A stretch of DNA of 64,000 nucleotides from an uncultured Pseudomonadota bacterium (lineage in GTDB: Bacteria > Myxococcota_A > UBA796 > GCA-2862545), in NCBI GenBank assembly GCA_903861005.1, contig CAIOSP010000043.1:1-64000 (forward strand). Direction: 5' to 3'. A model generated the notes under the pieces. That model did no database searches. It had not been told where the DNA came from and was given only the letters and a program-made list of their open reading frames with translations. Each line of letters starts with the position of its first letter. Position 1 is the first letter of the stretch. Below, one piece after another: positions 1,385-43,333 of the stretch. The translations under genes were made by a program, and so were the position numbers.

Positions 1385-3646
1385 GTGCCGATTCAAGCGG
1401 CGAGCGGGTGGACCGTGCGAGCAAACGCAACGATCGTGGGCGTCGTCGCCCTGTTGGCTTCTTGTGGCAAGGCGGACGTGCCTGCGCCGGTCGACGGGGC
1501 GTGCGTCGATGACGCGACCCTCTGGCGGGAGCAGGTCTACCCCCAGGTGATCCAGTCGGTGTGTATGGGATGCCACACGGCGGACGGCGCGGCGCGCGAG
1601 AGCGGGCTGGTGTTCGTTGGCACCGGCTACCCGGACCACGAGGCGCGTAATCGCGCGACCTTCGCGAACGTCGCGGGCTTGGAGCGCGCGGGCGACTCGA
1701 TCGTGCTGCTCAAGCCAATCGGACTTGAGGGTCACGGCGGCGGCAAGATCCTCTCAGAGGACGACGCCAGCTACGCGCTGCTCCAGGAATTCGTCGACCG
1801 GCTCGACCACCCGGTCGCCTGCGCCGGCTCCAACACCACCGTGGACGGCGACGCGGGCCTGACGCTCGACTCGCCTGTCCAGACGCTCCGCAAGGCGGCC
1901 GTGACGCTGGTCGGGCGGCTCCCGACGCCAGACGAGGAAGACGCCGTGCGCGCGGGCGGCGAGTCCGCGCTGGGCGACGCGGTGTGGGCGTTGATGGATG
2001 AGCCCGCGTTCGCGAACGTGTTCATGGAGAAGCTCAACGACGTGCTGCTGACCGACCGCTATCTGCGGAGCAACGACGCGCTGGGCATCATGGACGAGGA
2101 TCGCTTCCCCGGTCGCTACTGGTTTGAGGACGCGAAGAACGAGGACACGCTGCGCGATCGAACCAACGACGCCGTGGCGCGCGAGCCGCTGGAGATCGCC
2201 GCGCACGTGATGCGCGAGGACCGGCCGTGGACCGAGATCCTGACCGCCGACTACACGATGGTGAACGGCTACTCCGCGATGGCCTACGGCGTGGACGGCG
2301 CGGAGCCGCCCGACATCCGAGACCCCGCCGCGTTTGAGTTCGTCGAGGCGACGCTGCCGGACTGGTCGCACGCCGGACTGCTCACCACGCCGGCGTTCCT
2401 GAACCGCTACCCGACGACCGAGACCAACCGGAACCGCCACCGTGCGTGGGCCTTCTACAAGACCTTCCTGGCGACGGACATCCTGACGTTCGGAAAGCGC
2501 CCTATCGATCCCACGATCAGCGACGTGCACAACCCGACGCTGAACGATCCGCAGTGCACCGTGTGTCACGCGACGATGGACCCTGTCGCGGGCGCGTTCC
2601 AGTCGTGGGACGACCAGGGCCGCCTCGCGCCGCGCGAAGAGGGCTGGTATCCCGAGATGGCGCCGCCCGGCTTTGAGGGCGAGCCTGTGCCTCCGGCCAG
2701 CGGCAACGGTCAGCTCACCTGGCTCGCCGAGCAGTCGGTCGCCGACCCGCGCTTCGCGATCGCCACGGTCCGGATGATGCTCGGCGTGTTCACGGGTCTG
2801 GACGTGCAGTCCGAATCCGACGTGGGCGGCGACCCCAACAAGGCCGAGGCGCTCGCCCTGCAGGACCTGTGGGTCGCAGACGTCGCCACCGAGCTGGTCG
2901 ACCGGCAGTGGGACGTGAAGGTCGCGATCCAGCGCGTGGTCACGTCGCGCTACTTCCGCGCGAGCGCGGCGACGGGCGCCACGCCTGGCCAGCTGCTGCA
3001 GGCGGGCACGGCGCACCTCCTGACGCCGGAAGAGCTCGACCGCAAGATCACGGCGACCACCGGCATCCCCTGGCGCGCGAGCTCCGGCAGCACCAACCTG
3101 CTGCTCGATCGCTACGCCCTGCTGTACGGCGGCATCGACTCGCTCGGCATCACCGAGCGCCTGCGCGACCCGAATGGCGTGATGGCGAACATCGCCCGGC
3201 GCATGTCCAACGAGGTCGCTTGCGGCTCCGTCGCGCGCGACTTCCTGCTCGACCCCACGCAGCGCCGTCTCTTCCCGTTGGTGGAGATGAGCTACGTGCC
3301 GGAGACCGACGACGGGTTCGCGATCCCGGGCGCCGAGGACGCGATCCGCGAGAACATCCGCTGGCTGCACTCCCGACTGCTCGGCGAGGAGCTTGCCGTC
3401 GACGACCCTGAGATCGAGGCCACCTACGCGCTTTGGGTGGACGCTTGGAAGGCCGGGCGCGCGGGCCTCGCCGACGAGACGATCAAGGTCGATCTCGACT
3501 ACCGCTGCATGGCCCTGTTCGACCCGTTCACCGGAGATCAGCTCCGCGACGACCACCGCATCGTCTACGATCCCGACTTCACGGTCCGCGCGTGGATGAC
3601 GGTCACCGCGTACCTGCTCTCCGACTACCGTTTCCTGTACGAGTGA
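1385..3646 (+). CDS. Cytochrome c-type lipoprotein (DUF1549/DUF1588-like), partner of DUF1501
   Basis: A 753-residue exported protein with lipobox LLASC (Cys27) and two CxxCH haem c motifs, CMGCH (60-64) and CTVCH (391-395). The second sits in the context HATMDPVAGAFQSWDDQG, typical of the C..CH..MDP..G motif of planctomycete/myxobacterial DUF1588-type proteins. The stretch LRKAAVTLVGRLPTPDEE resembles DUF1549. These proteins are regularly paired with a DUF1501 protein, as here (4-bp gap). A role in extracellular redox or polymer breakdown is assumed for the family but unproven. GTG at 1385 gives a 26-residue signal; GTG at 1415 is an equally possible start with a shorter one. Confidence 0.8.
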   Translation: MPIQAASGWTVRANATIVGVVALLASCGKADVPAPVDGACVDDATLWREQVYPQVIQSVCMGCHTADGAARESGLVFVGTGYPDHEARNRATFANVAGLERAGDSIVLLKPIGLEGHGGGKILSEDDASYALLQEFVDRLDHPVACAGSNTTVDGDAGLTLDSPVQTLRKAAVTLVGRLPTPDEEDAVRAGGESALGDAVWALMDEPAFANVFMEKLNDVLLTDRYLRSNDALGIMDEDRFPGRYWFEDAKNEDTLRDRTNDAVAREPLEIAAHVMREDRPWTEILTADYTMVNGYSAMAYGVDGAEPPDIRDPAAFEFVEATLPDWSHAGLLTTPAFLNRYPTTETNRNRHRAWAFYKTFLATDILTFGKRPIDPTISDVHNPTLNDPQCTVCHATMDPVAGAFQSWDDQGRLAPREEGWYPEMAPPGFEGEPVPPASGNGQLTWLAEQSVADPRFAIATVRMMLGVFTGLDVQSESDVGGDPNKAEALALQDLWVADVATELVDRQWDVKVAIQRVVTSRYFRASAATGATPGQLLQAGTAHLLTPEELDRKITATTGIPWRASSGSTNLLLDRYALLYGGIDSLGITERLRDPNGVMANIARRMSNEVACGSVARDFLLDPTQRRLFPLVEMSYVPETDDGFAIPGAEDAIRENIRWLHSRLLGEELAVDDPEIEATYALWVDAWKAGRAGLADETIKVDLDYRCMALFDPFTGDQLRDDHRIVYDPDFTVRAWMTVTAYLLSDYRFLYE

Positions 3647-3650
3647 ACCG

Positions 3651-4913
3651 ATGAACCTCAACCGTCGATCGTTTCTCTCTTGGTTGGCCGCGGGCGGCGC
3701 CGCCGCAGCGGTGGGTCCGCGCCTCTACGGCCGCGCGAACGCGGACGAGCCCGTCGTGGGGCCGTTCTTCTTGTTCGTGAACGCGTCCGGCGGGTGGGAC
3801 CCGACCATGCTCTGCGATCCGAAGGGTCGCGCGAGCGAGGCCGAAGTCGACCCGATCAACAACTACAACACCTCCGACATCGAGCAGGTGGGCGCGTTCA
3901 AGGTGGCCCCGATCGACGGGCACGTCGCGTTCTTCGAGCGCTTCAAGTCCGACCTGCTGGTCATCAACGGCGTCGACACGCAGACGAACAGCCACGAGAT
4001 CGGCTCGCGCTTCATGTGGTCCGGTTCGATCAAGCCGGGCTTCCCCTCCGAGGCAGCGTTGGTCGCGGCCGCACGCGAGCCCCGGCCCGCGCTCGCGTTC
4101 CTGTCGAACGGCGGCTACGACGTCACCGACGGGCTCGTCGCGCCCACGCGCATCCCCGACACGTCGGCGATCTTGGAGATCGCGTACCCGGATCGGCTGG
4201 ACAAGGCCGACGACAAGACCGGCGTGCTGCCGCTCGACATCCTGACTCGGCTCGATCAGGCGCGCACTGAGCGCCTGCGTCGCCAGCTCGACGCGGCCAC
4301 GCTGCCGCGCCTGCGCCACGCGATGGCGTCGCTGCAGATCGCGCGCGTCGGCAACAACGATCTCGCTCGGCTGTCGGCCAAGCTCCCGTCCGCCCTCGAC
4401 ACGTCGGGCAACCCGCTGAAGCGGCAGGCGCAGGTGGCGATGGCTTGCTTCGCGGCAGGCGTGTCGGCGTCCGCGACGATGGAGATCGGGAACTTCGACA
4501 CGCACGGGGATCACGATCGCGTCCACACGCAGAGCATGAAGGACATCGTCGCGGGCATCGCGTTCGCGATGGACGAGGCCGAGCGCCAGGGCATCGCCGA
4601 CAAGGTGGTGGTGATCGTCGGTTCAGACTTTGGTCGCACCCCCTACTACAACGACACGATGGGCAAGGATCACTGGCCGATCACCAGCATGCTGCTGATG
4701 GGGCCGGGCATTCGCGGCGGACGCGTCCTCGGCGGCACCGACGGATCGTTCGCGCCGACGCTGGTCGACCCGACCACCCTCACGCCGTCCAGCACCGGCA
4801 TCCGCATCACGCCTGCGCACGTGCACGCCTCGCTGCGCGCGCTATCCGGCGTGGCCACCTGGGAGGGCGCGGCGCCGTACGGTGTCGGTGACGCGCTGCC
4901 GCTGTTCACATGA
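3651..4913 (+). CDS. DUF1501 family protein, Tat-exported
   Basis: A 420-residue member of the DUF1501 family, related to the alkaline phosphatase/sulfatase fold. The N-terminus carries a Tat signal (NRRSFLSWLAAGGAAAA). Family hallmarks are visible: FFLFVNASGGWDPTML near residue 42, NGVDTQTNSHEIGSR, and GSDFGRTPYYNDTMGKDHWP near residue 325. It lies 4 bp after the di-haem-motif lipoprotein and overlaps the next gene by 4 bp (ATGA), so the three are one transcription unit. Pairing of DUF1501 with a cytochrome c/DUF1549 protein is widespread in Planctomycetes and Myxococcota; the enzymatic reaction is not established. Confidence 0.9.
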   Translation: MNLNRRSFLSWLAAGGAAAAVGPRLYGRANADEPVVGPFFLFVNASGGWDPTMLCDPKGRASEAEVDPINNYNTSDIEQVGAFKVAPIDGHVAFFERFKSDLLVINGVDTQTNSHEIGSRFMWSGSIKPGFPSEAALVAAAREPRPALAFLSNGGYDVTDGLVAPTRIPDTSAILEIAYPDRLDKADDKTGVLPLDILTRLDQARTERLRRQLDAATLPRLRHAMASLQIARVGNNDLARLSAKLPSALDTSGNPLKRQAQVAMACFAAGVSASATMEIGNFDTHGDHDRVHTQSMKDIVAGIAFAMDEAERQGIADKVVVIVGSDFGRTPYYNDTMGKDHWPITSMLLMGPGIRGGRVLGGTDGSFAPTLVDPTTLTPSSTGIRITPAHVHASLRALSGVATWEGAAPYGVGDALPLFT

Positions 4914-6334
4914 GGACGCTCAGCCTGATCCTGGTCAGCGCGCTGGTCGCGTGCGGCAAGCCCGACGAGACCCTGTCTGACACGGACACGGACGTCGCGC
5001 TCACCGGCTGTGGTGACGGCGCGGTCGACGAGACCGAGGCCTGCGACAACGGCGAAGCGAACAGTGACGAGGCGGCGGACGCCTGCCGCACCGACTGTCG
5101 TCTGGCGTGGTGCGGCGATGGAGTGGCCGACGCGGGCGAGGACTGCGACGACGGAAACGCCTTCGGCGGCGACGGCTGCGATCCGTCCTGCCACGTCGAG
5201 AACGGCGCGCTCGAGGCTGAGCCGAACGATGTTCCCTTCCAGGGCACGCCGATCGTGCCCGGCAACGCGGTCGCGGGCGGCCTGCGCGAAGGTGACGTCG
5301 ACTGCTACGCGGTGGACGTCGGCGAGAACGGCTTCCTGTCCGCGCGGGTGAGCGGTCCGGACGGCGCGTGTCCGCCCGACATGGTGGTGCGACTGTACGG
5401 CCTCGACGACAAGTCGCTGACCGACGCCTACCCCGGACCCGACGGCGAGTGCGCCGCGATCGACCCGACGTCGGACGACCACGCCCGCTACCTGCACGCG
5501 GGTACGTACGCGGTGTGCGTCGAGGGGCTGTTCCGCTCGGCGATCCCCGCCTACCGCGTGTCGGTCGAGGTGGGTGACGACTCCTGCCTGTCCGGCGGCA
5601 CGACGAGCAACCCCAAGGACGATCTGGACGGCGACGGTCTGGCGAACCCCTGCGATGGCGACGACGACGGCGACGGCGTGGCCGATCTGGCCGACAACTG
5701 TCCGAACATGTCCAACGGCGGATCGTCCGCGGGCTTCAGCACGGCGCGCGACGGGTGGATTCGGCAGTGGCTGATCGCCGGCGCGTTCACCGGCAATCCG
5801 GTTGGGCCGGGCGGCAGCTGTGACCCGAGCGTCGCGTCGCTGATCGGCGACGACGACGCGACGACCGTGCCTGCGCTCGGCGCGGCCGCAGGCGCGCAGA
5901 CTTGGCGTGCCTGGATCGCCGCCGCAGACGCGATCGACTTCAGCACCGTGTTCAGCGCGTCGGCGGACCGCGAGTCCTACGCGGCCGTATGGGTCTATGC
6001 GCCGACCGCCCGCGACGGCGTGCTCGCGTACGGCGCAGACGACGGCAGCGCGGCTTGGCTGGACGGCGCTTCGCTCGGCGTCGACCCCACGTGCCACGGC
6101 GTGGTCACCGACGATCTGGAGCTCCCCGTCAGCCTAGCGCAAGGCTGGCACCGGGTGCTGTTCAAGGTGCGCGACCACGGCGGCAGCTGGGGCCTCAAGG
6201 CCCGCTTCAAGTCCACCGCCGGAGCGCCGATGACCGACCTGGAAGTGTCACTCACCGCCGACGCGACCTGGTACGACGACCAGAACGACGGCGACGGCGA
6301 CGGCGTGGGCGACGTCTGCGACCCGACGCCCTGA
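4910..6334 (+). CDS. Cysteine-rich calcium-repeat lipoprotein (DUF4215 and TSP3-like)
   Basis: A 474-residue lipoprotein, third gene of the DUF1501 operon (4-bp overlap). Lipobox LVAC is at Cys15, followed by a short DTDTD linker. Residues about 32-100 carry two DUF4215-type Myxococcus cysteine-rich repeats (CGDGAVDETEACDNG; CGDGVADAGEDCDDGN). A pre-peptidase-like beta domain follows (EGDVDCYAVDVGENGFLSARV). Calcium-binding TSP3-like Asp runs occur near 240-265 and again at the very C-terminus (DGDGDGVGDVCDPTP), flanking a domain that resembles a PA14/jelly-roll module (GWHRVLFKVRDHGGSWGLKA). Probably a surface accessory of the DUF1501/cytochrome pair; exact role unknown. Confidence 0.8.
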   Translation: MRTLSLILVSALVACGKPDETLSDTDTDVALTGCGDGAVDETEACDNGEANSDEAADACRTDCRLAWCGDGVADAGEDCDDGNAFGGDGCDPSCHVENGALEAEPNDVPFQGTPIVPGNAVAGGLREGDVDCYAVDVGENGFLSARVSGPDGACPPDMVVRLYGLDDKSLTDAYPGPDGECAAIDPTSDDHARYLHAGTYAVCVEGLFRSAIPAYRVSVEVGDDSCLSGGTTSNPKDDLDGDGLANPCDGDDDGDGVADLADNCPNMSNGGSSAGFSTARDGWIRQWLIAGAFTGNPVGPGGSCDPSVASLIGDDDATTVPALGAAAGAQTWRAWIAAADAIDFSTVFSASADRESYAAVWVYAPTARDGVLAYGADDGSAAWLDGASLGVDPTCHGVVTDDLELPVSLAQGWHRVLFKVRDHGGSWGLKARFKSTAGAPMTDLEVSLTADATWYDDQNDGDGDGVGDVCDPTP

Positions 6335-10106: not shown

Positions 10107-10952
10107 ATGCCGCTCTCCTTCGACCCCGTGCCGCACACCCACCTCCTCGTCCTGTCCGGCAGCCGCGCCTATGGCCTGGAGCGCCCGGGATCCGATGTGG
10201 ACGTGCGGGGCGTGATCGTGCCGCCCAAGCGCTTCCTGTACGGCCTCGACACGTTTGAACAGACCGACGATCCCGTGGACACCGCGCCGTTCCTGGACGA
10301 CCTGCGGCCGGCCGAGCGCCAGATCGCCGAGCAGGTGCACTTTGAGGGCGTGCTCACCGACCTGCGCAAGATCGTCCGGCTGGCGACCGACGGGAACCCC
10401 GCGATCCTCGACGCGCTGTTCGGCCGAGACGACGAAGTTCGCCGCATCACCCCCGTCGGCGAGGGGCTCCGCGCCATGCGCGGCCTGATGCTGACCCGCG
10501 CGCTCGCCCGACCGTACACGCGCTACGCCGCGGGGCAGCTCGACCGCCTCCGAACCCACCGGCGCTGGCTTGCGCTCCCCGCAGACCACCCCGACCGCGC
10601 GCGCCACCCGGCGTGGACCCGGCCCCGCGATCCCGCGCGCGCCGCGCTGGAGGCCAAGGTCGGGTACGACACCAAGGCGGCGATGCATTTGGTGCGGCTG
10701 CTCCGGACCGCCCAGGAGACCCTCGCCACCGGCCACGTGCGGGTGTGGCGGGGCGACCACGACGCCGACGAGCTCGGCCAGATCCGCGACGGGGCCTGGT
10801 CATGGGACACCCTGGAGGCCTGGGCCACCGACGCGGGACGCGCCGTCGAGGACGCGGTGGCGACGTCACCCCTGCCGTCCGCGCCTGACCTGCGGGAGAT
10901 CGAGCGCGCGACCCTGGCGCTGCTCGACCTGGCGATCACCACCCAGAATTGA
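10107..10952 (+). CDS. Nucleotidyltransferase, RlaP-like (DNA polymerase beta superfamily)
   Basis: A 281-residue minimal nucleotidyltransferase. GSRAYGLERPGSDVDVRG near residue 17 is the pol-beta-fold G-S...D-x-D catalytic motif in the form used by the COG3541/RlaP family, followed by a helical C-terminal part with KVGYDTKAAMHLVRLL. The ATG at 10107 was chosen by the family-like N-terminus and AGGG seven bases upstream. RlaP proteins are linked by context to RNA repair ligases; no ligase or RtcB lies nearby here, so it stands alone. Divergent from the SDR operon across 101 bp. Confidence 0.82.
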   Translation: MPLSFDPVPHTHLLVLSGSRAYGLERPGSDVDVRGVIVPPKRFLYGLDTFEQTDDPVDTAPFLDDLRPAERQIAEQVHFEGVLTDLRKIVRLATDGNPAILDALFGRDDEVRRITPVGEGLRAMRGLMLTRALARPYTRYAAGQLDRLRTHRRWLALPADHPDRARHPAWTRPRDPARAALEAKVGYDTKAAMHLVRLLRTAQETLATGHVRVWRGDHDADELGQIRDGAWSWDTLEAWATDAGRAVEDAVATSPLPSAPDLREIERATLALLDLAITTQN

Positions 10953-10955
10953 AAA

Positions 10956-10987
10956 GGCCCCGGGGTGCCTTGCAGCGCCCCGGGGCC
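10956..10987 (-). terminator. Hairpin between convergent genes, terminator for the minus-strand gene
   Basis: Perfect 10-bp inverted repeat, GGCCCCGGGG at 10956-10965 and CCCCGGGGCC at 10978-10987, loop 12 nt. Read on the minus strand the stem is followed by TTTTC, so it fits a rho-independent terminator of the lipoprotein gene ending at 11004; on the plus strand there is no T-run. Confidence 0.75.
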
Positions 10988-11003
10988 CGCTCACATCCAG
11001 CGA

Positions 11004-11864
11004 CTACTGGAAGGTGACGCCGTACAGCGAGAAGATGCGAACGAGGCCGGCGTTGGGGCCGTCCGCGCCGAAGGCGTCGGCGCCGTCGAGGAGGACGAGG
11101 TTGCCCGCGCCGTCATCCTGGACTTCCATCAAGTCGTTCACTTCGCCGACGAGGCCAGCGGCCTCGAGCTCGCGGGTGCCGTCGCTGAAGAAGGCGGCCG
11201 GGAGGCGCAGGTAGCCGCCGATGGCCTTGGCCTCGTCGAAGTCGGCGCCGAAGAAGCCGGCGATGCCGCCGTTGGCGTCGAGGACGGTCTGGACGCCGTC
11301 GGGGATGCTCGCGGCCCAGCCCATCTCCCACGCTTCGCCGAGGAAGGCGGCGTGGGGGTCTTCGGTCCACTGGTCGGCGGCGGGATCCAGGGTGCAGCCC
11401 TGCGAGATCAGGCCCGTGTAGAGGCCAGCGGCGATGACTTCGCCGGCGACCAGACCCTGCGAGTCGAGCCAGCCGGTGTAGTCGTTGGCGGGGGCGTCGG
11501 CCGCGGCGGCGTAGGCGTTGAACGCGTCGATGTCGAGCTGGTAGAACAGGACGCAGGTGTTCTGCGCCGCGTCGGTGAACGTGACGGACAGGCCGGGGAA
11601 GGCCTCCGTGCCGCCGACCGAGTAGGACGAGAGCTGGTGGTCCGCGTTGTAGGCGAGCTCGAAGGACAGGCTGGCCGAGGCCGGATGGAAGAAGCCGTCG
11701 TTCGGCACGCTCGAGTCACCGGTCTCGGTGGTGGCGGTGGTGTCGCCGTCGGTGTCCGTGCCGTCGGTGGTGCCGTCGGTGGCGGGCTTGGTGCCGCACG
11801 CGGTGAGGGCCAGGGCAACCATCGCCATCGGCATGAAGCCGCGAACCAGGAACATGTTGGTCAT
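11004..11864 (-). CDS. Lipoprotein of unknown function with Thr/Asp linker
   Basis: A 286-residue lipoprotein. It has a signal peptide with lipobox LTAC (Cys23), a Thr/Asp/Gly linker to about residue 52, then an all-in-one domain. GGAG lies 6 nt before the ATG. The domain contains two well-spaced Cys (in QNTCVLFYQL and SQGCTLDP) and a long central helical stretch (AFNAYAAAADAPANDYTGWLD). I recognise no family or catalytic motif. It is monocistronic by context: terminator hairpin downstream and a 127-bp gap upstream with no clear promoter. Confidence 0.75.
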   Translation of the reverse strand: MTNMFLVRGFMPMAMVALALTACGTKPATDGTTDGTDTDGDTTATTETGDSSVPNDGFFHPASASLSFELAYNADHQLSSYSVGGTEAFPGLSVTFTDAAQNTCVLFYQLDIDAFNAYAAAADAPANDYTGWLDSQGLVAGEVIAAGLYTGLISQGCTLDPAADQWTEDPHAAFLGEAWEMGWAASIPDGVQTVLDANGGIAGFFGADFDEAKAIGGYLRLPAAFFSDGTRELEAAGLVGEVNDLMEVQDDGAGNLVLLDGADAFGADGPNAGLVRIFSLYGVTFQ

Positions 11865-15161: not shown

Positions 15162-15722
15162 ATGCGCGCATTCCTGTTCTCCGTGATGATGGCGATCCTG
15201 TGCTCCGTGAGCAGCGTCGCGCACGCGGCCCCTGCGGACTGGAGCGCCATGCGCCTGACGTCCATCGACGGCGCGGCGGTCGACTCCGCGGCGCTCAAGG
15301 GCCACGTCGTGCTGTTCGTGAACGTCGCCAGCTTCTGCGGCTACACCGTGCAGTACTCGGACCTGGAGGCGCTCTACAAGCAGTACCAGCCGCAGGGCCT
15401 GGTGGTGGTGGGCGTGCCCTGCAACCAGTTCGGCTCGCAGGAGCCTGGGTCGGACAAGGAGATCAAGAACTTCTGCTCCACCCGATACGGCGTCACCTTC
15501 CCCCTGCTGAGCAAGCAGGAGGTCAACGGGTCGACTCGCAGCCCGCTCTACACCTGGCTGGTCGGCAGCAAGGCCGGCGCGGCGCGCGACATCGGCTGGA
15601 ACTTCGAGAAGTTCCTGGTCGGCCGCAACGGCGAGGTCGTCGCCCGCTTCCCCAGCCACGTCGTCCCGAACGATCCGTCCTTGCGCGCGGCCATCGAGTA
15701 CGCGCTGGCCGCGGGGGCCTGA
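15162..15722 (+). CDS. Glutathione peroxidase-family thiol peroxidase, exported
   Basis: A 186-residue GPx-fold peroxidase with a cleavable signal peptide (about 1-22, VAHA-A), so it acts in the periplasm. Peroxidatic Cys59 is in NVASFCGYT and encoded by TGC, not UGA. The family motifs VGVPCNQFGSQEP (84-96) and WNFEKFLV (146-153) supply Gln93 and Trp146. Cys87 or Cys105 could resolve the disulfide, as in thioredoxin-dependent bacterial GPx. It detoxifies hydroperoxides. The next gene begins 4 bp after its stop, so it is co-transcribed with the deacetylase-like gene. Confidence 0.93.
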   Translation: MRAFLFSVMMAILCSVSSVAHAAPADWSAMRLTSIDGAAVDSAALKGHVVLFVNVASFCGYTVQYSDLEALYKQYQPQGLVVVGVPCNQFGSQEPGSDKEIKNFCSTRYGVTFPLLSKQEVNGSTRSPLYTWLVGSKAGAARDIGWNFEKFLVGRNGEVVARFPSHVVPNDPSLRAAIEYALAAGA

Positions 15723-15726
15723 CGCG

Positions 15727-17556
15727 GTGACCCAAGCCCCCCCGTCGCGCGGGGCCGAGCTGGCCCGCTGGGTCGACCGCGCGCGACGGCGGCTGTGGGG
15801 AGGCAGGCCCTTGCCGGTCTGGTACCACCCGCTCTACCGGTTCCCAATCCACGATCTGCGTGAGACGACGGGCATCGAGCCGCGCCGAGCGGACTTTGCG
15901 CTCTGGTCGCTGATCGGCGCGCACAACCGCCATCGGATCGACGTCCACGAACCGACGCGGGCCCCGTACGAGCTGATGTCGCGGGTTCACACGCCGGCGT
16001 ACCTGGAGTCGCTGACCCGACCTCGCACGCTCTCGGCCGTCTTCGGGCTGGACCGCGACCGCTTCCCCGTGGACGCCGTGCTCGACACCCTGCGGCTGGC
16101 GGTCGGCGGCACGCTGGAGGCGGCGCGCCACGCCCTGGACGACGGCGGCCCCACGCTCAACCTGCTCGGGGGATTTCATCACGCCATGCCGGATCGCGGG
16201 CATGGCTTCTGCGCGATCAACGACATCGCGATCGCCATCTCCGTGCTTCGGTTGAAGGGCTTCAAGGGGCGCGTGGTGGTGATCGACCTCGACGCGCACC
16301 CGTCCGACGGCACCGCCGCCTGCTTGGCCCACGATCCGAGCGCCTGGATCGGCTCGATCTCCGGGTCGGACTGGGGGCCGCTCCCCACCGTGGACGAGAC
16401 CTGCATCCCGGGCGCCGACGACACCCAGTACCTGGCCGCGCTGGACGCCCTGCTCTCCCGTGCGCCCAAGCCCGACCTGACCTTTGTCATCGCCGGCGGC
16501 GACGTGATGCGCGGTGACCGCCTCGGCCTGCTCTCGCTCACGGCCAAGGGGGTGGGCGACCGCGACCAACGCGTCGCGACCTGGCTTCGCGGGTCGCCGT
16601 CCGTCTGGCTGCCGGGCGGCGGCTACCAGGACGACGCGTGGCGGCTGCTCGCGTCGACCGCGTGCGTGCTGATCGGACCCGGGGCGCGGCCCGTGCCGGC
16701 CACGTTGGACCCCGTGCAGGTGCGCTTCGAGTGGGTGTCGCGCGGCCTGAACCCCGAGGCGCTGACCGGGCGTGACGAAGACACGTTCATCACGCCCGAC
16801 GAGATGGACGCGATGTTCGGCGGTGATCATGGGCCGCCGCGCCTGCTCGGCTACTACAACGCCCAGGGGATCGAGGTCGCGCTCGAGTCCTACGGCATCC
16901 TCGGGCACCTCCGGCGCTTGGGCTACGATCGGTTCGAGATCGACCTGGACCACAGCGCGGCCGGCGACCGGGCCCGCTTGACCGGCGAGGCTCAGGGGCG
17001 TCGGCACCTGCTCTGGGAGCTGGTGCTGGCCTTTGAGCGGCTGGAGTCCGAGAACGTCCTGGCCCTGCAGTGGATGACGCTGCGACACCCGATCGCCGCG
17101 TTCCCGCCGGACCGGCTGCCGCTCCCCGGCCAGGACGTGCCGGGCCTGGGAATGGGCGAGGAGGCGCTCCACTTGGTGCTGCGCATCGCCGAGCGGCTGG
17201 ACCTGGCGGGCGTGCTGTACCGGCCGGCGTGGCTGCACACGGCGGCCTTCGCGCGTCGGTCGTTCCGCTTCGTGGACCCAGCCGAGCAGGGGCGCTTCGA
17301 CGCGCTCATGCGCGACATCGGCGGGATGGGCCTGCTGGAAGCCTCCCGTGCGGTGGCCGCGGGCCGAGTTCGGCGCGACGGCGCCCCGTGGGCGTGGCCC
17401 GCGGCGGCGATGATCTTGTGGCGGTCACCCCACCCGGAGACCGAGCAGGACGAGGCCATCCGTCACGCGACCATGACCGAGACCCACTTCACAGTGGACC
17501 CGGAAGCCACACCCGGGCCCGTCGCCCCGCCGTTGACCGTTCCCCGTCCAACCTGA
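15727..17556 (+). CDS. Histone deacetylase-like protein with large extra C-terminal domain
   Basis: A 609-residue protein. Residues about 25-330 are an arginase/HDAC-fold deacetylase: tandem His151-His152 in GGFHHAMP, GFCAINDIAIAI, zinc ligands in DLDAHPSDGT (Asp189, His191), AGGDVMRGDRLG (Asp259) and the catalytic-Tyr motif GGGY (297-300). Known bacterial members deacetylate acetylpolyamines, acetoin-pathway proteins or small molecules. Residues about 370-570 form a second domain I cannot name, with YNAQGIEVALESYGILGHL, FEIDLDHSAAGDRARLTG and HLLWELVLAFERL. GTG start 4 bp after the peroxidase stop. No signal peptide. Confidence 0.85.
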   Translation: MTQAPPSRGAELARWVDRARRRLWGGRPLPVWYHPLYRFPIHDLRETTGIEPRRADFALWSLIGAHNRHRIDVHEPTRAPYELMSRVHTPAYLESLTRPRTLSAVFGLDRDRFPVDAVLDTLRLAVGGTLEAARHALDDGGPTLNLLGGFHHAMPDRGHGFCAINDIAIAISVLRLKGFKGRVVVIDLDAHPSDGTAACLAHDPSAWIGSISGSDWGPLPTVDETCIPGADDTQYLAALDALLSRAPKPDLTFVIAGGDVMRGDRLGLLSLTAKGVGDRDQRVATWLRGSPSVWLPGGGYQDDAWRLLASTACVLIGPGARPVPATLDPVQVRFEWVSRGLNPEALTGRDEDTFITPDEMDAMFGGDHGPPRLLGYYNAQGIEVALESYGILGHLRRLGYDRFEIDLDHSAAGDRARLTGEAQGRRHLLWELVLAFERLESENVLALQWMTLRHPIAAFPPDRLPLPGQDVPGLGMGEEALHLVLRIAERLDLAGVLYRPAWLHTAAFARRSFRFVDPAEQGRFDALMRDIGGMGLLEASRAVAAGRVRRDGAPWAWPAAAMILWRSPHPETEQDEAIRHATMTETHFTVDPEATPGPVAPPLTVPRPT

Positions 17557-26939: not shown

Positions 26940-27482
26940 ATGGCTACCAACTCAGACAATGCCGAGCTTGAGCTCCTGCGTGCGGTGGCCCATGCCCGCA
27001 TGTACGTGACCTCAGGTCGAGGCCTGGAGTCCATCGCCGCCGCGCTCCAGAGCTCGGATCTGGGCATCGTCAGCAAGCTGCTGACCCCCACGGTGGAGAT
27101 GATGTCGGACGGAATGGGCGCCGAACAGGCGATCCGCATCACCATGGAGAAGGAGGACAACACTCACCTCCGCGCGTTCCTCGCGTCGATCATGTCGACC
27201 GGCAAGTCGGCCACGTCACGCCTGGACGAGCTGTCCGAGCAGTTGCACACCGAACGCTCCGCCACCGCTGAGATCCAGTCGCAGCGGCTCGTGGGCGTCG
27301 TGCAGGGCGCCGCCACCATCTTCGTCGCGGCCTTCGTGCCCACCTTCGCGTCGGTGCTCGGCGAGATCCCGGACAACCCCATGCTTCCCACGTTCAACAT
27401 CCCGACGTGGTTCGCGAGCGTGTGGTTCGGTCTGCTCTCGGTCGGCCTGACCATCGCGATGGCGTTCGGGAGGCAGAAGTGA
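26940..27482 (+). CDS. T2SF-type membrane protein, N-terminal half of a filament-assembly platform
   Basis: A 180-residue protein. Residues about 8-120 are a helical type II secretion F (T2SF/GspF) cytoplasmic domain (LLRAVAHARMYVTSGRGL, AEQAIRITMEKEDNTHLRAF, TSRLDELSEQLHTER), followed by two membrane helices (about 127-150 and 156-176) and a short basic tail. The ATG at 26940 is used because nothing upstream is conserved-looking. Its GTGA overlap with the next gene implies coupled synthesis. Together the two polypeptides make the T2SF-TM-TM-TM-TM-T2SF-TM layout of Tad B/C or archaeal ArlJ-type platforms. Confidence 0.8.
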   Translation: MATNSDNAELELLRAVAHARMYVTSGRGLESIAAALQSSDLGIVSKLLTPTVEMMSDGMGAEQAIRITMEKEDNTHLRAFLASIMSTGKSATSRLDELSEQLHTERSATAEIQSQRLVGVVQGAATIFVAAFVPTFASVLGEIPDNPMLPTFNIPTWFASVWFGLLSVGLTIAMAFGRQK

Positions 27483-28303
27483 AGGCCAAGACTGCCGATA
27501 GTGGTATCTCCACCGAGGCCTTCTTCCGGGCCGCGCAGTGGATGATCGGCCTGCCGATCATCTGGTCGTTCAGCGTGCGTCTGATCGGCCTTGGCGCGCT
27601 CGACCCGATCGACCCGTTACTCACGGGCCTCGTCGGGGCGACCATCGCCAAGTACGGCATGTTGGGCATGGCGTTCGCGCTGGAGGTCACCGACCGCATG
27701 CTCCTGCAGCATGAGGAGGAGTACCAGAACCGCCTGCACGAGATCATCAAGGACGTGGGTGATCGTCTTCGCGCCGGCAAGGCCGTCGAGACCTCGGTGG
27801 CCGAGGCGGCCGCCCGAGGTGGCGGCCCGTCCAAGGTGTTCCGGGAGGCCATCCGCCTGTCGGACGAGCTGCCGTTTGAGGGCGCGCTGCGCGTCGCCGG
27901 CGACCGCTCTGGCAAGCCCTACCTCCGCGAGGTCATGTACCTGATGGCCGAGGCCGTCAGCTCCGGCGGTGACACCGGCTCGGCGCTGCGTCGCCTGGGC
28001 ATGGAGCTTGAGCGCAACCGGCAGTACCAGATCTCCGTCGCCGCCAAGCTGTCCAGCCCCATCGCGCTGATGCGCTCCGTGGGCTTGGTGCTGGTGCCGC
28101 CGCTGTACGCCGCGCTGCGCTGGTCGTTCGCGGGCTTCGTTGGCATCCCGGCGGGCCCTGAGGCCGGCGCGCAGGTGTTCTTCCTGTACGGTGCGTTCGC
28201 CATCACCGTCTTCGACGGCCTGATCTTCGGCCAGTGGGACCGACTGGGCGCTCGCCTGCCGCTGGCGGCCGCCGCGGTCTACTGCGGATTGAATTGGATC
28301 TGA
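27479..28303 (+). CDS. T2SF-type membrane protein, second half of a filament-assembly platform
   Basis: A 274-residue integral membrane protein starting at GTG 27479 (overlap GTGA with the preceding gene). Two N-terminal helices (AAQWMIGLPIIWSFSV and LLTGLVGATIAKYGMLG), then a T2SF domain (YQNRLHEIIKDVGDRLRAG, AVSSGGDTGSALRRLGMELE), then three more hydrophobic segments to the C-terminus. The T2SF domain has the family Gly-rich and RLG features. Homology lies with Tad/ArlJ-like inner-membrane platform proteins; whether it is closer to bacterial TadB/C or to the archaeal type cannot be settled by eye. Confidence 0.8.
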   Translation: MKAKTADSGISTEAFFRAAQWMIGLPIIWSFSVRLIGLGALDPIDPLLTGLVGATIAKYGMLGMAFALEVTDRMLLQHEEEYQNRLHEIIKDVGDRLRAGKAVETSVAEAAARGGGPSKVFREAIRLSDELPFEGALRVAGDRSGKPYLREVMYLMAEAVSSGGDTGSALRRLGMELERNRQYQISVAAKLSSPIALMRSVGLVLVPPLYAALRWSFAGFVGIPAGPEAGAQVFFLYGAFAITVFDGLIFGQWDRLGARLPLAAAAVYCGLNWI

Positions 28304-28355
28304 AGTTCAGCCAGACGGGACCGATTTCGTATTCGCCAAGCACTCGGAGTTTACC

Positions 28356-29600
28356 ATGGGATTGTTGGACTGGCTGACGAAGAAGCCCTCTGCGAACACC
28401 GCAGCTGCCACTGAGGCCGTCGCCGGCGGCGTGCGTGTCCGCACCAGCCACGGTGGCCCGGGCATCTACGAGGTGCCGCGCGAGGTGATCGCCCAGGGCG
28501 GTCGCGCCGTGCTCAACTTCCTGCTGGAAGACGATCACCTGGAAGAGGTGATGCACAACGGCTCGAACGAGCCGATCCTCGTGTTCCACCACGAGTACGG
28601 CATGTGCCGCGTGAACTACTCGCTGGACCACGTGTCCTGTCAGGTGTTCATCCACGAGATCGTGCGCGCGCACAACGCCCGTCTGGACGAAGAGCACCCC
28701 CTGTTCGACGGCTCGCTCGCCGACGGCAGCCGCGTGAACATCGCCATCCCGCCCGTCACGCGCAGCGGCCCGTCGATCACGGTCCGTAAGTTCCGCAAGC
28801 GCGCCATCACCGTGCCCGAGCTGGTCCGCAGCGGCTCGCTCTCCGCGGACGCGGCCGCGTTCCTCTGGCTCACCATCGAGGGCATGGGCGCCAAGGCCGC
28901 CAACATGCTCGTCGTCGGCGGCACCGGCTCTGGCAAGACCACCCTGCTCAACGCGCTGTCGTGGTTCATCCCCAGCCGCGACCGCGTGGTCATCATCGAG
29001 GACACGCAGGAGCTGGTCGTCCCGCAGCCCAACGTCGTTCGTATGCTGACCGCAGACGGCACCACGATGGACCGCCTGCTGGTCAACTCGCTGCGTATGC
29101 GCCCTGACCGAATCATCGTCGGTGAGGTCCGCGGACCGGAGGCTCGTACGCTGTTCGGCGCCATGAACACCGGCCATGACGGTTGCATGGGCACCCTGCA
29201 CGCCAACAGCGCGCGTGAGTCGCTCCACCGCGCCATGAACGCGCCCATGAGCGTGCCGCTGTCGCAGCTGGTCGGCCTGGACTTGGTGATCGTCACCGAG
29301 CTGCGCAAGACCGGCGACGGCGCCCAGCGTCAGGTCGTCGAGATCGCCGAGGTGTCGGGCATCGGCGAGGACACCGCGCGCATCAACCAGCTCTTCGTGC
29401 GCGACCACGCGGCGAACGTGCTGGAGAACACGGGCATCCCGTCGCGCCTCCGCAGCGAGATCTGCCGCGCGGCCGGCGTGCGCTCCGAGGACTTCGCCGG
29501 CATGCTCAAGAAGCGCGCCCGCGCGATCGAGCGCATCGCCGCCCAGCGCGGGGATCTGGACACCGCGTTCCTGCGCCTGCTGGTCGACCCGCCGACCTAG
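28356..29600 (+). CDS. Secretion/filament-assembly ATPase, TadA/ArlI-like
   Basis: A 414-residue hexameric secretion ATPase of the GspE/VirB11 superfamily. N-terminal domain to about 150; Walker A GGTGSGKTT at 188-196; Asp box IIEDTQEL at 213-220; Walker B RIIVGEVRG at 252-260; His box TGHDGCMGTLHANS at 272-285. The FIPSRDRVVIIEDTQEL stretch and NAPMSVPLSQLVGLDLVIVTEL look more like archaeal ATPases (ArlI/GspE2) than like typical CpaF/TadA. It follows the two T2SF genes by 52 bp. It would power assembly of a pilus-like filament or a pseudopilus, but no pilin, prepilin peptidase or secretin gene is adjacent. Confidence 0.88.
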   Translation: MGLLDWLTKKPSANTAAATEAVAGGVRVRTSHGGPGIYEVPREVIAQGGRAVLNFLLEDDHLEEVMHNGSNEPILVFHHEYGMCRVNYSLDHVSCQVFIHEIVRAHNARLDEEHPLFDGSLADGSRVNIAIPPVTRSGPSITVRKFRKRAITVPELVRSGSLSADAAAFLWLTIEGMGAKAANMLVVGGTGSGKTTLLNALSWFIPSRDRVVIIEDTQELVVPQPNVVRMLTADGTTMDRLLVNSLRMRPDRIIVGEVRGPEARTLFGAMNTGHDGCMGTLHANSARESLHRAMNAPMSVPLSQLVGLDLVIVTELRKTGDGAQRQVVEIAEVSGIGEDTARINQLFVRDHAANVLENTGIPSRLRSEICRAAGVRSEDFAGMLKKRARAIERIAAQRGDLDTAFLRLLVDPPT

Positions 29601-41263: not shown

Positions 41264-41623
41264 CTAGTTCGCCGTCACCGTCGACTCGACCGGCACGATC
41301 CTCGGGACCTTGCAGCCCGAGTACACGTCGGCGCAGATCTGCGGGATCTCAGGGTCGACGCCCGCGCAGCCCGAGGACTTCAGGCCCTCGATGCAGGCTT
41401 CAGCGGCCTTGCGGTCGTACCGGCAGTCGGGCGGGTTGGGGTACTCCTGCGTCGACAGGTACTGCAGGCACTCGCGCTCCCCGACGGTGCGGAGCATCTC
41501 GTCCGACGCGCACAGAGCGTAGCCCTCGCAGAACAGGGGCTCGTACTCCTCGATGAAGTCCTTCTCCGGGATGCCCTTGCAGGCTCCAGACAGGACGACC
41601 AGGAACATGAGGGATCGACGCAT
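41264..41623 (-). CDS. Small Cys-rich lipoprotein
   Basis: A 119-residue lipoprotein starting at ATG 41623; lipobox SGAC (Cys15). The short mature part holds eight Cys, including FCEGYALC, RECLQYL, DCRYDRKAAEAC and ICADVYSGC, spaced as in helical disulfide hairpins (C-x9-C). Similar short Cys lipoproteins are frequent in Myxococcota genomes and usually unannotated. No function can be assigned. It is convergent with the PI-PLC-like gene and 67 bp from the divergently oriented methylase stop. Confidence 0.72.
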   Translation of the reverse strand: MRRSLMFLVVLSGACKGIPEKDFIEEYEPLFCEGYALCASDEMLRTVGERECLQYLSTQEYPNPPDCRYDRKAAEACIEGLKSSGCAGVDPEIPQICADVYSGCKVPRIVPVESTVTAN

Positions 41624-41690
41624 CACGGCGCTCCGGGCGGGAGGAGGCCTCCCCGCAGGCTCCCCTTCATGCTCCATTGGCCGCGCGGGA

Positions 41691-42770
41691 TCAAGCCGGA
41701 ACGGTCGCTCCGGTGGCGTCGGACACGCCCAGGCGCTCTCGCAGGGCCTGGGTGGGGGCCTCCGGCGTGACCAGGAACAGGTGCTCGCGGTTGGTCAGCG
41801 CACCCACCGTACCCACCTTGCGGCCGCTCGGGTCGAAGATGCCGATCCTGGCGCCGACGTAGCGGGGATGGGCCTGAGACAGGACGGTGACGTGCCCGCG
41901 GGCGCCCAGCAGGGTCACCAGCGCGTCGTGGCCCAGGAAGCCCTCATCGCTGAACGACACCAGCAGCACGGGCGCCTGAACCCGCGCCACCAGGTCCGCG
42001 AGCGCGGGGCCGATCTGGTGCTTGCGGTTGTAGGGGCTCTGCGAGGTCCGGACGTCCTGTCGCTTGCACGCCACGCCGTAGGTGTCGGGGGCGTCCCAGC
42101 GGACCAGGGTCTCCCAGATGTGGTAGTTCCCCGTGTACTTGTGCTGGTTGTAAGGCGGGTCCAGGTAGGCGACGTCGCCGGTGAGGCGGTCGGCGGCCTG
42201 CGCCGCGTCCAGGCGGTGGGCGCTCCCCTTCCCCGCCCGCGCCTGCGCCAGGACGGTCGGCATGCGCAGCTGCAGGTCGTGCAGCGCGCGCGGCGCCCAA
42301 GCCTTCAAGTAGGCCATCTGCACGCCCACCGTCGAGTCCACCCGATCCGCCGCCTCCATCAGCGACGTCAGCACCACCGCCTCCAGCTCGGGCGGCAGGG
42401 CCTTGGCGGCGATCACGTCGCGGATGGCGTCGATCCGCTCGCCGTTCTTGGGGTGGAAGAAGCGGCTGCGGGTGCAGAAAGTGTCGGTGACGTACCCTGG
42501 GCGACCGGGCAGGCGCCCCAGCTCGTCGAGCAGGCGCTCGGCGTCAGCCCACACATCGTCGCGGTCGGCGGCCACGTAGCAGCGGGCGAGCACCTCGCCG
42601 TAGGCGCTCAGGTCATTCGCGTGGACCCGGTGCCCGGCGGCCTTGAGCGCGTGCCCGACGCGCGACGTCCCCGAGAACAGGTCGAGCACCGTGCGCTCCG
42701 CGCCCAGGGCCTCGATGACCTCGACGATGCGCGGGACCAACAGGCGCTTGGACCCCAGGTACTTGATCAA
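41691..42770 (-). CDS. D12-class DNA adenine methyltransferase (orphan)
   Basis: A 359-residue N6-adenine methylase of the D12/Dam-like (alpha) group. TTG start (42770, AGGGG upstream) yields the family N-terminus IKYLGSKR, followed by the SAM motif DLFSGTSRVG (30-39) and catalytic DPPY in AYLDPPYNQHKY (DPPY at 204-207). HPRYVGARIGIFDPSGRKVG closes the fold. No restriction endonuclease or specificity gene is next to it, so it is an orphan or regulatory methylase; recognition sequence cannot be read out. A 7-bp inverted repeat lies in its upstream region. Confidence 0.92.
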   Translation of the reverse strand: MIKYLGSKRLLVPRIVEVIEALGAERTVLDLFSGTSRVGHALKAAGHRVHANDLSAYGEVLARCYVAADRDDVWADAERLLDELGRLPGRPGYVTDTFCTRSRFFHPKNGERIDAIRDVIAAKALPPELEAVVLTSLMEAADRVDSTVGVQMAYLKAWAPRALHDLQLRMPTVLAQARAGKGSAHRLDAAQAADRLTGDVAYLDPPYNQHKYTGNYHIWETLVRWDAPDTYGVACKRQDVRTSQSPYNRKHQIGPALADLVARVQAPVLLVSFSDEGFLGHDALVTLLGARGHVTVLSQAHPRYVGARIGIFDPSGRKVGTVGALTNREHLFLVTPEAPTQALRERLGVSDATGATVPA

Positions 42771-42788
42771 CGGCGCCCCTCAGTACGT

Positions 42789-42807
42789 GCGGACACGGTC
42801 TGTCCGC
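42789..42807. promoter_or_regulatory. Inverted repeat between divergent genes
   Basis: GCGGACA at 42789-42795 and TGTCCGC at 42801-42807 are exact inverted repeats around 5 nt, 19 bp upstream of the methylase TTG and about 44 bp upstream of the DUF962 start. A regulator site or a simple stem-loop. Confidence 0.45.
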
Positions 42808-42850
42808 CACCCATGCTACGACTGCGGTATGACACGAACGGGGAGGCCGT

Positions 42851-43333
42851 GTGCGCTATCAGTCCTTCACTGAGTTCTGGCCCTACTACATCCGGGAGCA
42901 CTCCGTCCCGAGCAATCGGCACGTGCACTTCCTCGGCACGTCGTCGTTCCTGGGCATCCTGGGCTGGTGCCTGGTGCAGTCGCCCACCACGCTCGGGCCC
43001 ACGCTCCTGATCTCGCTCTCGCTGATCTGGGCGGCCTTCTCCATGGAGGCCCGGCGCAACGCGTCGCCGGTGCTCTTCCTGGTGATCGCCCTGTGCGCCT
43101 GGGCCAACCCGTGGATCCTGCTCGGCCCGGTGGTCGCCTACGGCTGCGCCTGGTTCGGCCACTTCCGCATCGAGCACAACCGCCCGGCCACCTTCACGTA
43201 CACGCTGTGGTCCCTCGCGGGCGACTTCCGCATGTACGGGAACATGCTGCGCGGCCGCCTGTGGACCGGTGACGGGTCCGACGTGGTGGGCCCGGTGCTC
43301 GAGCCCGGCGACCTGCTGCCCAAGACGGAGTGA
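42851..43333 (+). CDS. DUF962 (Mpo1-like) membrane protein
   Basis: A 160-residue membrane protein. GTG start with GGGAGG just upstream. The N-terminus carries FWPYYIREHSVPSNRHVHFLGTS, which is the DUF962/Mpo1 pattern with the HxxG-type His; several hydrophobic helices follow (LGILGWCLVQSP, LLISLSLIWAAFSM, VLFLVIALCAWANPWILLGP) and then FGHFRIEHNRPATF, the second conserved His. Yeast Mpo1 is an iron-dependent fatty-acid alpha-oxidation dioxygenase; bacterial members are likely lipid-active. Divergent from the methylase. Confidence 0.88.
   Translation: MRYQSFTEFWPYYIREHSVPSNRHVHFLGTSSFLGILGWCLVQSPTTLGPTLLISLSLIWAAFSMEARRNASPVLFLVIALCAWANPWILLGPVVAYGCAWFGHFRIEHNRPATFTYTLWSLAGDFRMYGNMLRGRLWTGDGSDVVGPVLEPGDLLPKTE

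Follow-up and report, generated by a model that had tools for sequence, protein, structure and literature searches.

A three-gene platform and ATPase unit without linked pilins in a Myxococcota_A bacterium: a candidate minimal motor for a type IV-type filament

The unit we call F-F-E encodes two platform proteins, F1 and F2, followed by one secretion ATPase, E, and is present in the genome of an uncultured bacterium (GTDB lineage Bacteria; Myxococcota_A; UBA796; GCA-2862545). Our preferred reading, to which we assign a probability of about 0.6, is that F-F-E is the minimal motor of a type IV-type filament, that its pilins and prepilin peptidase come from elsewhere, and that it belongs to an old, vertically kept lineage outside the TadA clade. 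The window, by which we mean the whole stretch of DNA that was analyzed, comprises 64,000 nucleotides (positions 1 to 64,000 of the forward strand of contig CAIOSP010000043.1, assembly GCA_903861005.1), and all coordinates given below without another source refer to it. The complete contig, designated C43, is 76.7 kb long.

The three genes and the two platform proteins

All three genes of the unit lie on the + strand, with the boundaries given in the initial annotation. F1 (26940..27482) encodes a short platform protein of 180 aa, a T2SF cytoplasmic domain followed by two TM helices; F2 (27479..28303) encodes the second platform protein of 274 aa; and E (28356..29600) encodes a 414 aa secretion ATPase of the TadA/ArlI/VirB11 superfamily. 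The GTG start of F2 sits within the stop of F1, which creates an overlap of 4 bp (GTGA, 27479..27482, + strand), also as annotated, and F1 and F2 are likely to be translationally coupled through it. The orthologous unit found in a second genus (genome G012, JAUHWK010000080.1) has a 4-bp overlap too, but with an ATG start. The three products are intact T2SSF, T2SSF and T2SSE proteins. Two T2SF domains are encoded here together with a T2SSE ATPase whose motifs are intact; this is the platform and ATPase core of the type IV filament superfamily, and F-F-E is most likely a single operon-like unit that carries no filament genes of its own. This agrees with the earlier proposal of a minimal unit without pilins, which is complete in two genera and runs from F1 into F2, as far as the contig end, in a third genome.

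The Pfam T2SSF model gives F2 36.4 bits and F1 24.1 bits, just below the cut-off of 25.2 bits; F1 reaches 25.2 bits when it is run with its frame neighbours. The AlphaFold2 model of F1 is a confident helical bundle (pLDDT about 90 in the cytoplasmic part). A Foldseek search ranked SpoIIIAB highest together with the EpsF, OutF and PilC cytoplasmic domains (T2SS-F/PilC), with probabilities of 0.93-1.00 and weak E-values for the leading matches. The model of F2 is poor (pLDDT 50) and its fold search was kept out of the evidence. Hydropathy and the modelled helices indicate the topology T2SF-TM-TM for F1, which, unlike TadB and TadC, has no N-terminal TM pair, and hydropathy and the helices of the poor model provisionally indicate TM-TM-T2SF-TM-TM-TM for F2. 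Joined, the two proteins would run T2SF-TM-TM / TM-TM-T2SF-TM-TM-TM, the same domain run as in a haloarchaeal fused platform, where it is preceded by an extra N-terminal TM pair. The layout proposed at first, T2SF-TM-TM-TM-TM-T2SF-TM, differs from this at the C-terminal end of F2, where three TM helices appear to follow the T2SF domain. Compared by profile with TadB, TadC and haloarchaeal platforms (or their halves), F1 and F2 both scored weakly, too weakly for a one-to-one assignment. This weak match to known platforms and the unusual shortness of F1 count against the motor reading.

An ATPase between the Tad and archaeal families

E matches Pfam T2SSE with 142.9 bits. Its Walker A motif (GGTGSGKTT, residues 188-196, 28917..28943) and Walker B motif (RIIVGEVRG, residues 252-260, 29109..29135), both located by alignment, its Asp box (VVIIEDTQEL, residues 211-220, 28986..29015) and its His box (NTGHDGCMGTLHAN, residues 271-284, 29166..29207), all on the + strand, are intact in E and in the G012 orthologue. 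The IEDT of the Asp box is an archaeal-type spelling; the spelling of the His box is Tad-type. The archaeal-style stretches that the initial annotation had pointed out are real on alignment. CpaF carries an 8-residue insert immediately ahead of its equivalent of PMSVPLSQLVGLDLVIV, and E has no such insert after the His box; PMSVPLSQLVGLDLVIV itself (residues 297-313, 29244..29294, + strand) aligns without gaps to the archaeal PLKVPRSMLQFLDIALV. Further archaeal-type traits are VPxSxxxxLD, FLWLxIE and the C-terminal tail (residues 360-396, 29433..29543, + strand), which aligns with that of GspE from A. fulgidus.

Scores against family models place E apart from both families. With the TadA model TIGR03819, E obtains 189 bits and the G012 orthologue 186, compared with 142 for a haloarchaeal ATPase and 318-338 for five TadA controls, which themselves score under the cut-off of 373; E lies about 130 bits below true TadAs. 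With the archaellum FlaI model, E obtains 207 bits and the orthologue 223, both short of the equivalog cut-off of 550 bits, while the TadA controls score 187-214 and the haloarchaeal ATPase 402. By these scores, relative to the controls, E is not an ordinary TadA, and it is not an ordinary archaeal ATPase either. In pairwise comparison E scores highest with CpaF (199 bits), its nearest solved structure, followed by archaeal GspE (178.5) and FlaI (140).

The best trees lean to the archaeal side. In trees of 35-38 rows, E groups with five or six archaeal ATPase rows at a support of 99-100/98-99 in three taxon sets, and where six archaeal rows are present E is joined to them at 100/98. Constraining E to a position beside Tad costs 10-12 log units, and the AU test does not reject that position (p 0.068 and 0.139). 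The diagnostic columns in which E and its orthologue agree with one side number 27, with 17 Tad-like and 10 archaeal-like.

This mixture of traits bears on an alternative that we consider possible but somewhat unlikely, namely that F-F-E is a diverged side branch of Tad whose own pilin, secretin and TadZ genes have been lost and which now drives the resident Tad pili as a substitute or additional motor, for instance in retraction or under a different regulator. CpaF as the best pairwise match, the excess of Tad-like diagnostic residues, the Tad-type His box and the AU result are all in line with such an origin, as is the presence of three Tad ATPase-platform loci alongside it in the genome; the best trees, the deficit of E on the TadA model, the reversed gene order and the missing TadB/TadC N-terminal TM pair of F1 argue against it. 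That E forms a deep lineage outside TadA is supported by the best trees and by the low TadA-model score. The earlier description of E as archaeal-like fared less well: trees and aligned stretches favour it, but the pairwise ranking, the diagnostic residues and the AU test do not allow a clean label, and we treat the archaeal affiliation as only a leaning. E may be sister to archaea, sister to Tad, or Epd-like, the trees having been drawn from groups other than the Epd-like clade, the reported sister of Tad (PMC6668835).

Two side observations concern related ATPases. In the tree, two TadA-like ATPases from the same bacterial family (L019, 152-1507, and L024, 1168-2532; genomes G014 and G013) sit on a long branch of their own, apart from the remaining TadAs. 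Two further matches within the phylum to the archaeal ATPase profile turned out not to be archaeal-type and belong to ordinary Tad loci.

Conservation and genomic surroundings

Comparison with a genome of the same genus, G001, gave dN/dS values of 0.087 for F1 and 0.097 for F2, and both genes are under strong purifying selection. The G001 contig ends inside F2; for this reason E was observed in two genomes only, and among the 379 sampled genomes of the phylum F2 was found in 3 and E in 2. The scan of GTDB species genomes looked for exact 8-residue patterns from a single protein, and its reach is limited to close kin. G012 holds the whole of F-F-E with gene order and overlap kept and no pilin neighbours, at identities of 40% for F1, 41% for F2 and 60% for E. 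The window contig and the G012 contig are collinear, with order and orientation kept, for a glutathione-peroxidase-like gene, an HDAC-like gene, F-F-E, a lipoprotein gene and a gene for a small protein (frame coordinates 15162-17556 and 41264-43333 in the window; 3266-5616 and 10545-11432 in the second-genus stretch L041). Genes between the members of this frame turn over, and the immediate neighbours of F-F-E differ between the two genera; in the window they are a divergent RecC-type gene, itself followed by a RecB-like gene, and a gene for an AHSA1 protein.

Because order and overlap are conserved in a second genus and the contigs are collinear, we take F-F-E to be real, old and, to judge from the two genera compared, vertically kept since at least their ancestor. 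The initial annotation had allowed for a transfer. A recent one is rejected: the neighbourhood is collinear, the GC3 of F-F-E is ordinary and the platform genes are under purifying selection. Origins as a mobile module were also considered. Viral contigs contained no relative of E or F2, and phage matches to E are as distant as plasmid ones. In plasmids, F2 matched nothing and all matches to E were below 60% identity; among the matches listed, those with an annotation were named CpaF, TrbB, VirB11 or archaeal-type ATPases. Decay, or an artefact of assembly or annotation, would be in keeping with the weak T2SSF scores and the rare distribution of the unit, yet it is highly improbable and we reject it on account of the F1 and F2 dN/dS of about 0.09, the intact motifs and an E orthologue that is 60% identical at the collinear locus of another genus.

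Whole-genome family searches found no Flp pilin, A24 prepilin peptidase or secretin on C43, and no second ATPase or platform protein of the F-F-E type on that contig. The earlier remark that these filament components are missing beside the unit holds, for pilin, prepilin peptidase and secretin, over the whole contig; for TadZ, no such gene was noticed among the immediate neighbours. Elsewhere in the genome there are three separate Tad ATPase-platform loci (on contigs C45, C1 and C26) and one PilB-type locus (C200), together with two A24 peptidases (C92 and C215), four Flp pilins (C45, C4 and C39) and two secretins, only on C200 and C26. The three Tad loci have the order A-B-C, and the reversed order noted for F-F-E is found here and in G012. 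Two of these Tad loci (L038 on C1 and L037 on C45) have no secretin nearby. In G012, Flp pilins and A24 peptidases likewise lie on contigs other than that of F-F-E. A scan for class III signal peptides (PF04021) returned one sub-cut-off match of 12 residues, within a 305-aa frame of a different contig, with similar noise in unrelated control genomes, and a strict regex scan of low power for prepilin-like N-termini gave no candidate on the window contig or on L041.

A small, old unit with no pilin nearby in either genus might also be a motor for a task that involves no extended filament, such as a short secretion pseudopilus or envelope work. We regard this as improbable: F-F-E has no linked effector or secreted substrate, and in known systems the platform and ATPase work on pilin-like proteins (PMC10191384).

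Comparison with known systems and proposed function

The closest functional parallel may be in archaea, where ATPase/TadC modules without pilins have been described, for which a supply of pilins in trans is proposed (Makarova, Koonin and Albers 2016, PMC4858521). These modules of the PilB-PilC type, in euryarchaeal clade 2 and others, resemble F-F-E in combining an ATPase and a platform without pilins, some of their loci have two TadC-like genes (PMC4858521), and archaeal ATPases share with E the stretch after the His box, FLWLxIE and the C-terminal tail. The modules differ in that the host of F-F-E is bacterial, that its two platform genes precede E whereas the haloarchaeal loci examined have E followed by one fused platform, and that E is distant from archaeal models, as its score on the FlaI model indicates. 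The Tad pilus (TadA/TadB/TadC; CpaF/CpaG/CpaH) has two single-domain platform genes, an ATPase of the same superfamily and the same spelling of the His box, but F-F-E reverses its gene order, lies on a contig that lacks Flp pilin, peptidase and secretin, and combines an E that scores far lower on the TadA model with an F1 without N-terminal TM helices. The Epd-like archaeal pilus (Denise et al. 2019, PMC6668835), reported as the sister group of Tad, also has two neighbouring single-domain platform genes with an ATPase beside them, and the intermediate character of E fits this comparison because of that reported relationship; F-F-E has no adjacent second ATPase, and the likeness is one of gene layout. 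A precedent for archaeal-type filament machinery in bacteria is the archaellum of Chloroflexota (PMC12488501), which is a full cluster, whereas here there is motor and platform only, with E at 207 of the 550 bits of the FlaI cut-off.

The Chlorobium limicola plasmid pCL1 (L084, 14.6 kb) carries a compact set of CpaF, two F-type genes and an A24 peptidase, with no annotated secretin in the stretch seen. The Microcystis phage MaAM05 record MW495066.1 (L049) contains a Tad-like stretch with an annotated secretin, a TadA-like ATPase and, after it, two genes matching TadB and TadC, possibly host DNA in the phage record.

A filament machine has platform and ATPase as its minimal membrane complex (PMC10191384), and we propose that F-F-E would make such an inner-membrane motor for a type IV-type filament. 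F1 and F2 would jointly form one two-domain platform, presumably as a heterodimer, which a hexamer of E would drive, and pilin-like subunits and prepilin peptidase would be supplied in trans from other loci of the genome, in the way proposed for the analogous archaeal modules (PMC4858521). Flp pilins and A24 peptidases are present in the cell, on other contigs, both in this genome (G000) and in G012; the Flp pilins may be dedicated to the resident Tad loci alone. That F-F-E builds a filament at all is likewise our inference. In a more far-reaching version, which we think unlikely, F-F-E would be a survivor from around the divergence of archaeal pili and Tad: its platform would be split, perhaps in the order of an ancestral fused gene, its ATPase would combine archaeal with Tad traits, and bacteria would have retained it separately from the Tad radiation, to drive its own filament, encoded at an unlinked locus.

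Tad has been viewed as the result of a single transfer of an Epd-like system from archaea to bacteria, its two-gene platform having arisen by gene fission (PMC6668835). This history can be tested directly on F-F-E, which is bacterial and has an intermediate ATPase, a split platform and another gene order. As a minimal motor, it would also exemplify, in a bacterium, a module that draws its subunits from other loci, and it would do so beside three resident Tad loci.
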